Source of the DNA: Natronococcus amylolyticus DSM 10524
GTDB taxonomy: Archaea > Halobacteriota > Halobacteria > Halobacteriales > Natrialbaceae
Length of the DNA stretch: 64,000 nt
Reading direction: 5' to 3'
Assembly: GCF_000337675.1 (NCBI RefSeq)
Contig: NZ_AOIB01000028.1
Location: 86,140-150,139, forward strand
Both the position numbers and the translations under genes were made by a program. The notes beneath the pieces were generated by a model that searched no databases, was not told the DNA's origin, and saw only the letters and a list, made by a program, of their open reading frames with translations. Of the stretch, positions 21,288 to 46,315 are shown one piece after another. How positions within the stretch are numbered: the first letter of the stretch is position 1; each line of letters starts with the position of its first letter.

Positions 21288-21390
21288 GATGATTAGTAGG
21301 AGAAAGAGTCGGAAGAGCTGTTGCAAACCACGGATCGGGTAGAGAGGCCCAGACGGAGACGGCTGAATGCCGAGAAGTCGATCGCACACA

Positions 21391-21816
21391 CACACCACGT
21401 TTCCGGTGAAACGGCTCGAGAGGGTAGAGGGTACGGACGAATTTGACGACGGTTGTCAGACATTTCTAGTTCGCTTCCCTACAGTTCCTAGACTGTACTT
21501 CTAGTGGTTTTATTAACTATTAGTGCGTAGAGCCCATTGACTAGATCACATTTTAATAGAGGTGACTATAGTCACCAAACAGATCGCCCTCTCGAGCCGA
21601 GTCCACTATCTCTTGCGTTCGAATCAACAGCTCGGAACTAACCGCGTCTCGAGTTATCTGCCGGGATAACTGGGTATCGATTCCTGGAAAACCCCCGTTT
21701 CCCCTCCACCCCACCCACCCTCGGAGCCGATTTCACCGGAAACGTGGTGTGTGTGTGCGGCCGGCGGATCCCACTCGTCGAAACCCTCAAGTTGATTCAC
21801 CGGAAACACGGTGTCT
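21391..21816. other. oriC: Candidate replication origin with inverted ORB elements and AT-rich unwinding region
   Basis: Three copies of an origin-recognition-box-like motif, TTCACCGGAAACRYGGTGT, occur here. One is in minus orientation at 21391-21412; two are in plus orientation at 21731-21752 and 21795-21815. The outer pair faces opposite ways around an AT-rich stretch (about 21440-21570), the usual layout of an archaeal origin: inverted ORBs flanking a DNA unwinding element. The last copy abuts or overlaps the start of the orc1/cdc6 gene, so the protein may also control its own transcription. The motif agrees with the Orc1/Cdc6 binding site known in haloarchaea (GGAAAC core). Whether this is the main chromosomal origin or that of a second replicon is not visible. 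Confidence 0.8.
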
Positions 21817-21822
21817 GAATCA

Positions 21823-23037
21823 ATGCCCGAGTCCGATGACCTGTTCGTCCGGGAGGATCCGATCTTCGTCAACAAGGAACTCCTCGAGATCAGTCACCTC
21901 CCGGACGAGGGTCGTATCGTCGGTCGGGACGAGGAGATCAGCCATCTCGCTAACGCGGTCAATCCGGCGATCTTCGGCCAGAGTCCGAGTAACGTCCTCA
22001 TCTATGGAAAGACGGGAACCGGAAAATCCCTCTGTGCGAAGTATATCTCCAGGCGACTCGTCGAAACCGCGAAGGAAGAAGACATCAACGCAGTCTTCGC
22101 GTACGTCGACTGTGCGCAGGATACCACCGAGACCCAGGCCGTCCAGACGATCGCGAGCTCGGTCAACACCGAGGAGACGGATATCTACATTCCGGATAAG
22201 GGGATCAGCACGGCGACGTACTACAAGCGACTCTGGCGTCTGCTCAACGAGGAGTACGACGTTGCGCTCATCATCCTCGACGAGATCGACAAACTCGAGG
22301 ACGATGCGATCCTGATGCAGCTCTCCCGAGCGGGCGAGGCGGGAAAGGTCAGAGACTGCAAGATCGGTGTCATGGGGATCAGTAACAAGATCAAGTACAA
22401 GGATCGGATGGACGAGCGGGTCAAATCGAGCCTCTGCGAACGGGAGTTCGTCTTCCCACCGTACAACGCGAGTCAGCTCAACAAGATCATGACCGCCAGA
22501 AGCGATGCGTTCCGAAAGGGGGTGCTGGAGGACGCGGTAATTCCACGGGCCGCCGCGCTGGCGGCCCGCGAGCACGGCGACGCGCGCAAGGCGATTGACA
22601 TCCTCCGGTATGCTGGCGAGATCGCCCAGACTCGGGGTACGGAGACCGTTCGCGAGGAGTTCGTCGTTCAGGCACGGGAACGCGCGGAGGTCGACCGATT
22701 CCGCGAACTCATCCGCGGCTCGACCCCTCACTCCCGGTACGTCCTGCAGGCGTTGACGGTGCTCTCGCTCGACCAACAGCGGGAGGACGAAGGCGTCGAG
22801 AACAGCGGGTTCAGAACCACGCGCATCTACGACGTCTACGAACAGATCTGCCGACAGGAGGGAACCGAGGCGCTCTCGCTTCGCCGCGTCCGCGACCTCC
22901 TGAAGGAACACGCCTTCCTCGACATCCTCGAGCAGACCCGCCACAGCGGGGGGAGTGCGGAAGGCAGTTACACCGAACACACGCTCCTCGAGGATCCCAA
23001 AGTGGTCAAAAACGTCCTCGAGGACACCGTTGAGTAG
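21823..23037 (+). CDS. orc1: Orc1/Cdc6 replication initiator
   Basis: About 404 residues, AAA+ initiator. Walker A is YGKTGTGKS, Walker B is LIILDEIDKL, followed by the ORC/CDC6 lid region (REHGDARKAIDILRYAGEIA). The C-terminal ~100 residues form the winged helix that binds ORB DNA (RVRDLLKEHAFLDILEQTRH). An upstream GTG at 21811 lies within an ORB and would add four residues; the ATG at 21823 (MPESDDLFVRED) is preferred. It binds the ORB repeats on either side, melts the origin and recruits MCM. The gene sits between three upstream and five downstream ORBs. Confidence 0.93.
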   Translation: MPESDDLFVREDPIFVNKELLEISHLPDEGRIVGRDEEISHLANAVNPAIFGQSPSNVLIYGKTGTGKSLCAKYISRRLVETAKEEDINAVFAYVDCAQDTTETQAVQTIASSVNTEETDIYIPDKGISTATYYKRLWRLLNEEYDVALIILDEIDKLEDDAILMQLSRAGEAGKVRDCKIGVMGISNKIKYKDRMDERVKSSLCEREFVFPPYNASQLNKIMTARSDAFRKGVLEDAVIPRAAALAAREHGDARKAIDILRYAGEIAQTRGTETVREEFVVQARERAEVDRFRELIRGSTPHSRYVLQALTVLSLDQQREDEGVENSGFRTTRIYDVYEQICRQEGTEALSLRRVRDLLKEHAFLDILEQTRHSGGSAEGSYTEHTLLEDPKVVKNVLEDTVE

Positions 23038-23101: not shown

Positions 23102-23404
23102 ATTCACCGGAAACATGGTGTGCTCTTCCACCGGAAATTCGGTGTGACTTCGCCCGCCGTACAAGTCCGATTCGACCGACCGCACTTCTGTTGATTCTCG
23201 GTTCTGAAATCCCCGGCTACAGCGCACTTGTTTCCAATTTAACCACCCTGTTCAGCTTTCCACCGGAAAGATGGTGTCTCCGCCGACGACAGCATCCGCC
23301 CGTCGGCACACCGGGGTTCCGGTGAAAGCCCGCCCAACCGGGGGTTTCTGGTACCTTCGATAACTGGCCTTCGCGCAGGTCCATTTCACCGGAAACGAGG
23401 TGTG
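23102..23404. repeat. Downstream cluster of five ORB elements
   Basis: Five motifs of the type TTYCACCGGAAA, about four bases, GGTGT. Plus orientation: 23102-23122, 23126-23146, 23258-23278 and 23384-23404. Minus orientation: 23307-23328. The first two are only 24 bp apart. No gene is seen between the orc1 stop (23037) and 23606. This cluster may be a second half of the origin or an initiator-titration site. Confidence 0.8.
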
Positions 23405-23503
23405 TCTGACTAGTGTTCTTGGATTGACTGCTTCTCAGTAGTGCAACCCTTTCGGTGACGGTCCGTAGCGAGAGCGAGACGATTCCCCGAACGGGTTCAA
23501 TAT

Positions 23504-24927: not shown

Positions 24928-25014
24928 ACTTTCTGAAACTCACTACTCAGATATGAAAGTACGTCAGACAACTAATCTACGACTGACAGGTAAGTCACAT
25001 ACCTTTCGAGCCTA

Positions 25015-25253
25015 TCTATGGGACTAATCTAAGACTATAATCTAAGATATTTAGAAACCACCCCGGAAGTAGGGAAACGGGTTAGATATCGCTATACGTC
25101 TTTGATTGCGACGATATCCACGGATCAACGTTGTCGAACGTCGCTTCGATTTCGATCTTGCCTCCGTAGCTCACCTGTGATGGAACTCTAAGACAAGAGC
25201 CTAAGATAGTTTTCTAAGACACTCGTCTATGAACATCTTCTATGGATCTAAGA
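25015..25253. repeat. 13-bp-phased TCTAAGA iterons upstream of parA
   Basis: A 7-bp motif, TCTAAGA or TCTATGR, recurs at exact 13-bp steps in two blocks. Block A starts at 25015, 25028 and 25041. Block B starts at 25187, 25200 (CCTAAGA), 25213, 25226 and 25239. One further TCTAAGA is at 25247, off phase. A related TCTACGA is at 24976. The stretch is AT-rich and has no gene. Regular iterons of this sort next to parA are typical of partition sites or of operators for the ParA partner. Confidence 0.75.
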
Positions 25254-25998: not shown

Positions 25999-26083
25999 CT
26001 TGGAGGTCCCGGTCGCAGTCGGTATTCGCGTCACCTTGGAGGCCCAGTCGCGGTCGGTGCCCGCGCCACCTTGGTGATCCCGT
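25999..26083. repeat. Tandem ~35-bp imperfect repeat
   Basis: Two imperfect units starting with CTTGGAGG (25999-26033 and 26035-26069), both containing GGTCG and ending CGCGYCAC, are followed by a third truncated copy (CTTGGTGATCCCG from 26070). They lie in the gap between the methyltransferase and VOC genes. Confidence 0.5.
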
Positions 26084-44407: not shown

Positions 44408-46315
44408 TCAGTCGGCCGGTTCGACCAGCAGCCGCGAGCGCATCTCGAGGTGGAGCGCACTACAGAAGTACGCGCAGTAGATCCAGTAGACGCCCGGCTC
44501 GTCGGCCGTAAACGTCACCTCGCGGGTTTCCTGGGGGGCGAGCTTGACGTTGACGTCGTGTTGCGGGATCGCCAGCGAGTGGATGATGTCCTCCTCGCTC
44601 TCGATGTTGGTCGACCTGATGGTGACCTCGTCGCCCTCCCGGACGGTGATGTCCTCGAAGCCGAAGTGGTTGCGCTGGTTGTACATCTCGACGCGGACCT
44701 GGTCGCCGTCGCGCTCGATGAAGTTCTCCTCGTCGTCGGCCGAGATGAAATCCAGCTCGAGGTCGTCGGGGTCGTACACTGAGGCGGGATCGAGCCGGTC
44801 GGCCCGGACGATCGAGGCGTCGTGGGGCTCGGGGTAGGTGGGGGTGTCCTTGACCAGCTCCATCCCGGCGTCGTCGTCGCCGATGTAGAACAGCTGGTCG
44901 TTCTCGGGGAACACCGGGCCTACCGGGAGGAACCGATCCTTCGAGAGTTTGTTCAGCACGATCAGCCAGTCGCCCTGCGGATCGCCGGTGTAGGATTCGG
45001 CGGCGATCAGGTGGCCGGGGCTGTAGTGGACGTCGTGTTTCTCGATGACGGGGTCCTCAGACCCCTTCTCGGCCTCGACGGCGGCTTCGATGTCCCACTT
45101 GACGACCTGGGAGTCGACGAACAGCGTCGTGTAGGCGTGGCCGCGGCCGTCGTAGGCGGTGTGCAGCGGGCCGTTCCCGACGTTGACGCGACCGACGATC
45201 GCGTCGTTGGGGTCGTCGACCTCGTTCAGCCGATCGATCTCGATGACCGTACACGTCGGGTCGAGCTTGCCGGAGGCAATCGCGTACCGTCCGTCCGGCG
45301 TGACGCTGACGCCGTGGGGGTTTGTCGGGACGTCGATGTACCGGACCAGGGGTTCATCGCCGTCGTTGAGGGAGCTGTCCTCGGTGCCGTCGACGACCGG
45401 GACGCCGTTTATCTCCTCGTACTCGCCGGCGTCGATCGCGTCCTCGATGCGGGGAATGTTGAAGGCGACCACGTAGTCGGTGTCGGCCGCCGTCATCTCC
45501 CGTTCGGTGACGCCCTCCTCGCTGTTGTAGCTGGTCGTGAAGAACCACTCGCCGTCCTTGCCCGAGTCGCCGTTGTCGAGGTTACAGTCGACGCGAACGT
45601 CCCACTCGTGGTCGAACGGGTCCGGCGACATCGCCGAGAGCGTCGACCCGTACTCGCTGGGATCGTCGAGGTCGCGGCCGTCGTTCGGAATCGGGACGCG
45701 GAGTTCGCCGACGCCGAAGACGTACCGGCTGTCGGGCATCAGCATACATGCGCCGTGGGTTCCCTGGTGGTTCGGCAGGTCGATGATCGCGTCCGTCTCG
45801 AAGTACTTCAGGTCGATCCGGGCCATCCGACCGTTGGCCTTGTCGTTGACGAACAGCCACTCGCCGTCGTACTCGTTGTCGGTCTGACTGACGCGGGGGT
45901 GGTGGGTGTCACCCCACGTGTAGCCGCCGGACTCCTGGAGCATCTCGTGGGTTTCGTCGTCGAACCCGTACCCTCGAGCGCTCTCGACGTTGAACACGGG
46001 GATGCGCATGAGCTGGCGCATCGAGGGAACCCCGTAGACGCGGATGTCGCCGGAGTGGCCGCCCGAGAGGAACGCGTAGTAGTCGTCGTGTTCGCCCGGC
46101 GGGACCTCCGTGTCGACGTCGGCCGCCGAGACCTGCTCGTCGTCGCTGAGCAGTCCGGTACAGCCCGCGAGCGATCCCATCATCCCGGTGGCGGCGCCCG
46201 CGATCATGAAGTCACGCCGCGGAATTCGTGCGAAGAGCGGATCTCTGTCGTCTACCGCGGTCGTGCTGGTCGGTTCCTCGGGGGTTGTCGGTTCGGACGC
46301 ATGTGATTTTGTCAT
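44408..46315 (-). CDS. nosZ: Nitrous oxide reductase
   Basis: 635 residues, reducing N2O to N2 on the outside of the cell. A Tat signal (RIPRRDFMIAGAATGMMGSL, lipobox LAGC) directs export. The N-terminal seven-bladed propeller carries the histidines of the CuZ cluster (SGGHSGDIRVYG, GDTHHPRVSQ, HQGTHGACM, NPHGVSV, LHTAYDG, HYSPGHLIA, EPHDASIV). The C-terminal cupredoxin has the complete CuA set C614, C618, H622 and M625 in YCAYFCSALHLEM. First gene of the nos operon, 20 nt upstream of the membrane-protein gene. The mature protein is acidic, as expected for a halophile. Confidence 0.96.
   Translation of the reverse strand: MTKSHASEPTTPEEPTSTTAVDDRDPLFARIPRRDFMIAGAATGMMGSLAGCTGLLSDDEQVSAADVDTEVPPGEHDDYYAFLSGGHSGDIRVYGVPSMRQLMRIPVFNVESARGYGFDDETHEMLQESGGYTWGDTHHPRVSQTDNEYDGEWLFVNDKANGRMARIDLKYFETDAIIDLPNHQGTHGACMLMPDSRYVFGVGELRVPIPNDGRDLDDPSEYGSTLSAMSPDPFDHEWDVRVDCNLDNGDSGKDGEWFFTTSYNSEEGVTEREMTAADTDYVVAFNIPRIEDAIDAGEYEEINGVPVVDGTEDSSLNDGDEPLVRYIDVPTNPHGVSVTPDGRYAIASGKLDPTCTVIEIDRLNEVDDPNDAIVGRVNVGNGPLHTAYDGRGHAYTTLFVDSQVVKWDIEAAVEAEKGSEDPVIEKHDVHYSPGHLIAAESYTGDPQGDWLIVLNKLSKDRFLPVGPVFPENDQLFYIGDDDAGMELVKDTPTYPEPHDASIVRADRLDPASVYDPDDLELDFISADDEENFIERDGDQVRVEMYNQRNHFGFEDITVREGDEVTIRSTNIESEEDIIHSLAIPQHDVNVKLAPQETREVTFTADEPGVYWIYCAYFCSALHLEMRSRLLVEPAD

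Follow-up and report, generated by a model that had tools for sequence, protein, structure and literature searches.

Copies of a 7-bp word stand at 13-bp steps upstream of a parA gene in the haloarchaeon Natronococcus amylolyticus. Are they the site on which a partition machinery acts, or do they serve gene control, replication or nothing at all? Among the open questions listed in a 2016 review are the joint segregation of chromosome and megaplasmids in halophilic archaea and the nature of archaeal centromeres, which may be clustered or dispersed (PMC5120986). A sequence-only reading of the locus had suggested a novel archaeal partition site. We found no report of these arrays in open-access papers, preprints not included, and since a description elsewhere is not excluded the claim of novelty stands only to that extent.

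The parA operon and its upstream repeats

The stretch of DNA analysed, 64,000 nucleotides in length and called the window below, belongs to contig C28 (408,583 bases) in a 4.4-Mb haloarchaeal genome. No tRNA genes were found in the 408 kb of C28, and we therefore infer that it is probably a megaplasmid or a secondary chromosome. Between 21.4 and 25.3 kb, the window contains in order an origin with TTTCACCGGAAACnnGGTGTGTG boxes, orc1/cdc6, further boxes, the partner gene and parA on the minus strand, and the phased repeats (Table 1). The ParA product has a P-loop motif (EAGGVGKSS) that starts at residue 9 and no N-terminal DNA-binding domain. Its Pfam matches are of the ParA type only, the closest solved chain is Thermus Soj (1wcv, E 4e-8), and no SegA chain is named among its best 60 solved-structure matches.

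Table 1. Features of the locus and of its replicon. Positions refer to the window unless C28 is given.
Feature	Position	Strand	Remarks
Origin upstream of orc1	21383..21817		boxes TTTCACCGGAAACnnGGTGTGTG at 21389-21411 (inverted), 21731-21753 and 21796-21817, flanking an A+T-rich stretch
orc1/cdc6 replication initiator	21811..23037	+	TIGR02928, E 1e-126
Five further TTTCACCGGAAACnnGGTGTGTG-type boxes downstream of orc1	23102..23407		23102, 23126, 23258, 23306 (inverted), 23384
Partner gene, 149 aa	23606..24055	-	4-bp overlap (ATGA) with parA; from alignments, models and homologue searches
parA, Walker-type ParA ATPase, 291 aa	24052..24927	-	Pfam AAA_31 E 2.4e-16, CbiA E 3.9e-12
Promoter-like segment GTCTGACGTACTTTCATA	24952..24969	-	25-42 bp ahead of the parA start; same sequence in five Natronococcus orthologues
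Promoter-proximal iteron TCTACGA	24976..24982		-49 to -55 from the parA start; 39 bp before 25015, in phase with block 1
Block 1	25015..25047		TCTATGG 25015, TCTAAGA 25028, TCTAAGA 25041; 13-bp steps
Block 2	25187..25253		TCTAAGA 25187, CCTAAGA 25200, TCTAAGA 25213, TCTATGA 25226, TCTATGG 25239; 13-bp steps; plus TCTAAGA 25247, shifted 8 bp
Distant sites	C28:162188-162246; 261249 (cluster from 261231); 381548		three sites besides the parA array

The repeats had been placed upstream of parA and of an overlapping gene for a 149-residue partner; this position and the 4-bp overlap were confirmed, and the overlap is common to nearly all homologues that we translated. The small partner gene lies directly downstream of parA. 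Its product has a conserved N-terminal tail (MSGFKSGASSDDPF), a variable acidic linker and a conserved C-terminal domain in which a predicted strand, TVQLHLQ, is followed by helices. Alignments and a model agree that the conserved tail motif M-x-G-F-K-S-G precedes a disordered acidic linker. Since tail and linker diverge, the gene is easily missed, and several public records leave it unannotated or annotate it too short (NC_019976 of N. occultus, 287623-287937; loci L160, L162 and L163).

The partner could not be assigned to a named family by Pfam, NCBIfam, PHROGs or solved-structure searches. Family searches gave no ParB domain match, partner profile searches, which can miss distant relatives, gave no resembling solved chain, and a partner profile aligned to an omega repressor sequence gave no match. 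Prediction of the full-length structure was poor. The model of the C-terminal domain (mean pLDDT 74) places three helices after a low-confidence strand region, a strand-helix-helix order being likely, and no structural neighbour of this model was found. The weak strand is compatible with a ribbon-helix-helix fold because the strand of such proteins forms only in the dimer. We infer that the partner is probably a ribbon-helix-helix protein, for which the model is no proof, and we propose it as the centromere-binding protein in the absence of binding data.

The sequence-only reading had listed eight copies of TCTAAGA. All eight positions do fall on the 13-bp lattice in two blocks, but only four hold the exact word (25028, 25041, 25187 and 25213); 25200 and 25226 have one mismatch each, and 25015 and 25239 have two. 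Two copies had been overlooked, the in-phase TCTACGA at 24976 and the exact TCTAAGA at 25247, which is 8 bp out of phase. The array follows the rule TCTWAGA at 13-bp steps with 8-bp shifts at its turns. Blocks 1 and 2 are 146 bp apart (11 x 13 + 3) and therefore not in phase with one another. At the place of the promoter-proximal iteron, -55 from the parA start, TCNTAGA is kept in 5/5 Natronococcus orthologues. The neighbouring segment GTCTGACGTACTTTCATA may be the parA promoter, an inference from its sequence. A 35-bp tandem repeat (2.4 copies, 25999-26082) spans the upstream DNA and the beginning of the methyltransferase gene that adjoins the array.

Singly, TCTAAGA is not rare (six copies in the window, 3.0 expected), and five of the six fall inside 226 bp. 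The phased pairs are not explained by chance: four were observed against about 0.00 expected, and 0/500 shuffles reached this. Replicon-wide scans relied on pattern searches and on sequence fetched in stretches. Over the whole of C28, eight pairs have a spacing of 13 bp when the two words together may contain no more than one mismatch. In the range from 5 to 30 bp, the only other spacings with such pairs are 18 and 26 bp, with two, and 11 and 21 bp, with one. With 10.5 bp per turn, a 13-bp step corresponds to about +86 degrees and an 8-bp step to about -86 degrees, and 8 + 13 = 21 bp would make exactly two turns. The 13-bp phase makes the sites rotate around the helix, as had been noted earlier; wrapping is geometrically sensible and remains an inference.

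The 13-bp step in close and distant relatives

Absence of phasing from orthologous loci had been named as an outcome that would refute the partition idea, which survives this comparison: phasing is near-universal in the orthologues. Natrialbaceae plus Halorubrum, Haloarcula, Halovenus and Halopenitus have close homologues of the partner, at about 45% identity or above; a scan of viral contigs returned only one. At least one phased TCTWAGA pair stands upstream of parA in 54 of 55 close-relative loci from several haloarchaeal families, and one fails. The 55 loci are those with at least 200 bases upstream; some were fetched twice, and they hold 49 distinct ParA sequences. Arrays reach more than 300 bp upstream, and more than 500 bp in some relatives.

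TCTWAGA words in these relatives are spaced by 13, 26 and 39 bp or by 8, 21 and 34 bp and almost nothing else, with 9, 22 and 35 bp instead of the latter series in Halorubrum. Pooled pair counts were 88, 51 and 33 at 13, 26 and 39 bp and 26, 35 and 13 at 8, 21 and 34 bp, with at most five at any other spacing; another pooled count gave 143, 87 and 58 pairs at 13, 26 and 39 bp. The 8-bp shifts are typically inverted pairs, TCTAAGAnTCTTAGA. When 125 genomes of the family were compared, TCTWAGA-N6-TCTWAGA with no more than one mismatch was present in 27 of the 28 that have a close partner (E at most 1e-30), against 16 of the 97 others. The six members of the same genus with a close partner have four to eight matches to the pattern, and the three without it have none. 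One locus, L100, bears a Halorubrum-like haloarchaeal partition module, yet its contig is assigned to a Mollicutes metagenome bin; this is binning contamination.

A search for TCTAAGA at 13-bp steps near other haloarchaeal parA genes had also been suggested; 13-bp phasing was found even in distant modules with other words. In these distant homologues the partner is about 30-45% identical, and gene order and the 4-bp overlap are the same. Their upstream periodicity was scored without an assumed motif: summed scores were 306, 175 and 100 at 13, 26 and 39 bp, compared with at most 16 at other spacings and at most 14 in the shuffled control. Four word groups could be distinguished (A, TCTWAGA; B, TTAGnCTAA; C, TGTTCA; D, CAGTAnTACTG), each of which forms a single, strongly supported clade in the ParA tree. 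As a caveat, part of the data on which the groups were compared had also served to derive words B to D, whereas the motif-free periodicity is independent of that step. Group C includes Halobacterium pNRC200, Haloferax mediterranei pHME132 and Haloquadratum PL100.

The word is linked one-to-one with the ParA/partner subfamily, and no 13-bp pair of another group's word was detected at any locus examined. For 11 held-out named plasmids under strict mismatch rules, the predicted word was found in a 13-bp pair in seven and a wrong word in none. The other four fail the strict test; their arrays are visibly degenerate and were not counted as successes. All partner groups have the N-terminal K-x-G...PF tail and a helix region around V-x-K-x-D-x-R-E-A in common. 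The clearest difference among their C-terminal domains is the predicted strand (TVQLHLQ in A, VQFYLR in B, VPLFLQ in C, VHQLFVY in D). A strand that differs between groups with a common tail and common helices is what would be expected if the strand reads the word. Since the step is kept in relatives despite the change of word, the arrays are likely centromeres.

Weak 13-bp repeats with the words CTATAC/GTATAG or TGACTTAG-like accompany other partner subfamilies at four loci (L155, L156, L158 and L159, on pHH400, pNG700, pBNX82-4 and PL131), which are maybe further code groups. The 323-kb plasmid of Halomontanus rarus (NZ_CP119799.1) combines a module of group A with one of group D (1350-1760 and 45821-46249) and is perhaps a fused replicon.

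Copies far from parA

All eight strong pairs of this genome lie on C28, the parA contig, four of them at parA. Two of the three distant sites keep their position in other Natronococcus: G090, G091, G092 and N. occultus have the 162-kb site at the corresponding place, and the 261-kb site is syntenic in G092. At the 162-kb site, identity is 78% in the iteron columns (anchor left out), against 64% in the spacers and 38% in the 3' flank. On pHTUR01, where parA is at 224 kb, distant candidates lie at about 97, 168 and 600 kb, that at 168 kb only when two mismatches are allowed. No distant sites were found on the three group C plasmids searched. Satellites are therefore not universal, and for the group C plasmids searched we rejected distant sites as a general rule.

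In N. occultus SP4 (loci L171-L190) the orc1-parA segment of the C28 type is in the 4.0-Mb chromosome (about 1.174-1.193 Mb), and the 288-kb plasmid NC_019976 has a further C28-like portion of about 112 kb that includes three TCTWAGA satellites. This plasmid has no cognate parA and has gained a group D partition module with its own partner. Either its satellites are still read in trans by the chromosomal proteins, or they have another use, or they have not yet decayed.

A further sequence, GCTCAGAGATGTGTATAAGA, occurs at contig starts and inside contigs of assembly G000 (C5:81251, C9:2, C13:90299 and 275561, C14:25250, C16:6, C18:8 and 11829, C21:4 and C26:31300). We take it to be Nextera adapter sequence left in the assembly, possibly with false joins.

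A candidate centromere and its alternatives

The locus resembles type Ib systems (ParF/ParG of TP228, delta/omega of pSM19035) in its ParA without an extra N-terminal domain, its small downstream adaptor with a putatively flexible N-terminal tail, and its direct and inverted repeats upstream of the operon (PMC5016525). The last likeness concerns the site only, centromere function being inferred. Omega of pSM19035 reads 7-bp words and wraps DNA (PMC5016525). Unlike type Ib, the haloarchaeal arrays have a 13-bp step, inverted joints of 8 or 9 bp and distant satellites, their word is exchanged among subfamilies at constant step, and the sequence of the adaptor does not identify it as ParG or omega. 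Membership of type Ib is unsettled because the fold of the adaptor is unproven.

With SegAB of Sulfolobales the locus shares an archaeal ParA-type ATPase, an overlapping downstream partner (whose DNA binding is inferred here) and sites both before segA, here parA, and elsewhere on the replicon. The SegB site, TCTAGA-S-TCTAGA with the core AGA-S-TCT (PMC12284271), is strikingly close to the haloarchaeal inverted pair TCTAAGAnTCTTAGA. However, each SegB site is one 13-bp palindrome, in most cases intragenic, whereas the haloarchaeal sites are tandem 13-bp-phased arrays, mostly intergenic near parA, in which only the inverted joint resembles a SegB site. SegAB identity was rejected on this site architecture alone. 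The AspA-ParB-ParA system of pNOB8 is likewise an archaeal plasmid partition system with a ParA and an upstream site (PMC5120986), but it has three proteins, with the winged-helix AspA on a 23-bp palindrome, where here there are two genes and phased 7-bp words. Type Ia or chromosomal ParABS was rejected on the lack of a ParB domain match in the partner. The repeats of TubRC and ParRC (types III and II) have steps of about 10-12 bp, against 13 bp in the haloarchaeal arrays. They too are short and lie upstream of the operon, and a small protein binds them and assembles into a helical complex (PMC5016525); the motor here is a ParA ATPase, not an actin- or tubulin-like protein.

A chance or compositional artefact of the A+T-rich gap, conceivable for a short word in such a region, was rejected on the shuffles and the spacing spectrum; the control pattern, the orthologues and synteny also contradict it, conservation refutes it, and we give it practically no weight. 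It is scarcely more tenable that the repeats are replication iterons for the neighbouring Orc1/Cdc6 initiator. The orc1 gene is only 1.9 kb away and also nearby in several relatives, and plasmid origins often have iterons. Yet Orc1 has boxes of its own on both sides of its gene, of a kind described for haloarchaeal origins (PMC3528665). They differ in sequence from TCTWAGA, which lacks their G-string, and are not part of the array. The TCTWAGA arrays also stay with parA where no orc1 lies inside 5 kb (pHTUR01), and the iteron reading was rejected once Orc1's own boxes had been found.

There are two other readings, neither of which we think probable. The array could be an operator only, at which the partner or another regulator represses parA, with the true centromere elsewhere: the iterons closest to parA border directly on its inferred promoter region, and type Ib adaptors are repressors (PMC5016525). 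Against this unlikely case stand the reach of the arrays, beyond 300 and in some relatives 500 bp, the conserved copies far from parA, and the fact that in type Ib operator and centromere are the same repeats. It seems to us a shade less credible still that the partner mainly organises DNA across the replicon, a role proposed for SegB in Sulfolobales, with the arrays as loading sites and segregation as an indirect effect. SegB sites are scattered over the chromosome (PMC12284271), and distant arrays do occur, conserved on the parA contig and, in N. occultus, on a plasmid without cognate parA. However, there are three distant sites in 408 kb here against 46 SegB motif sites in S. solfataricus (PMC12284271), none on the group C plasmids searched, and the array is densest at parA.

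We consider it very likely that a type-Ib-like ParA system on a haloarchaeal secondary replicon has its main centromere in this array, and probably its operator too, the function of the array being inferred. The earlier suggestion of an archaeal partition site is supported because phasing is near-universal in orthologues, and the dispersed copies on the same contig and the match between word and partner add support. The arrays, their phase and conservation, the dispersed conserved sites and the link between word and subfamily were observed directly. We counted against the centromere reading the lack of binding or stability data, the unrecognised partner family, the inconclusive models, the group C plasmids without distant sites, the N. 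occultus sites on a plasmid without cognate parA, and the strict failures (1/55 and 4/11).

As a mechanism we propose that partner dimers would read TCTWAGA through the two-stranded ribbon of the C-terminal domain. At the fixed 13-bp step adjacent dimers would touch and wind along the DNA, each superhelical turn taking up about four sites. The N-terminal K-x-G...PF tail, which is conserved, would contact nucleoid-bound ParA and trigger its ATPase, so that the replicon would be moved by a ParA gradient. Bound beside the parA promoter, the partner would also repress the operon, and the extra short arrays, tens to hundreds of kilobases off, would act as satellite sites. Replicon families with the same step and different words would be kept from interfering when co-resident. 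Binding, wrapping, repression, ATPase stimulation and partition are inferred only.

A wider reading is possible, and we hold it with more doubt than conviction: haloarchaea may have their own class of partition system, with the 13-bp step as an invariant of its structure and the word as a code open to exchange, and at least four coexisting code groups would prevent cross-talk among the many replicons of one cell. Satellites on a replicon without its former parA, as on the N. occultus plasmid, would then be read in trans by machinery now chromosomal, which would tie two replicons together.

Judged from sequence, the arrays appear to form a haloarchaeal centromere class that is defined by its 13-bp step and resembles known ParA partition in kind. 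They give an entire class of haloarchaeal replicons a concrete centromere candidate defined by sequence, and plasmids of genetically workable species (Halobacterium pNRC200, Haloferax mediterranei pHME132) belong to this class. With words, step and gene pair supplied, incompatibility groups would become predictable from sequence. A step held at 13 bp across changing words would also be a clear example of conserved geometry with drifting sequence specificity.
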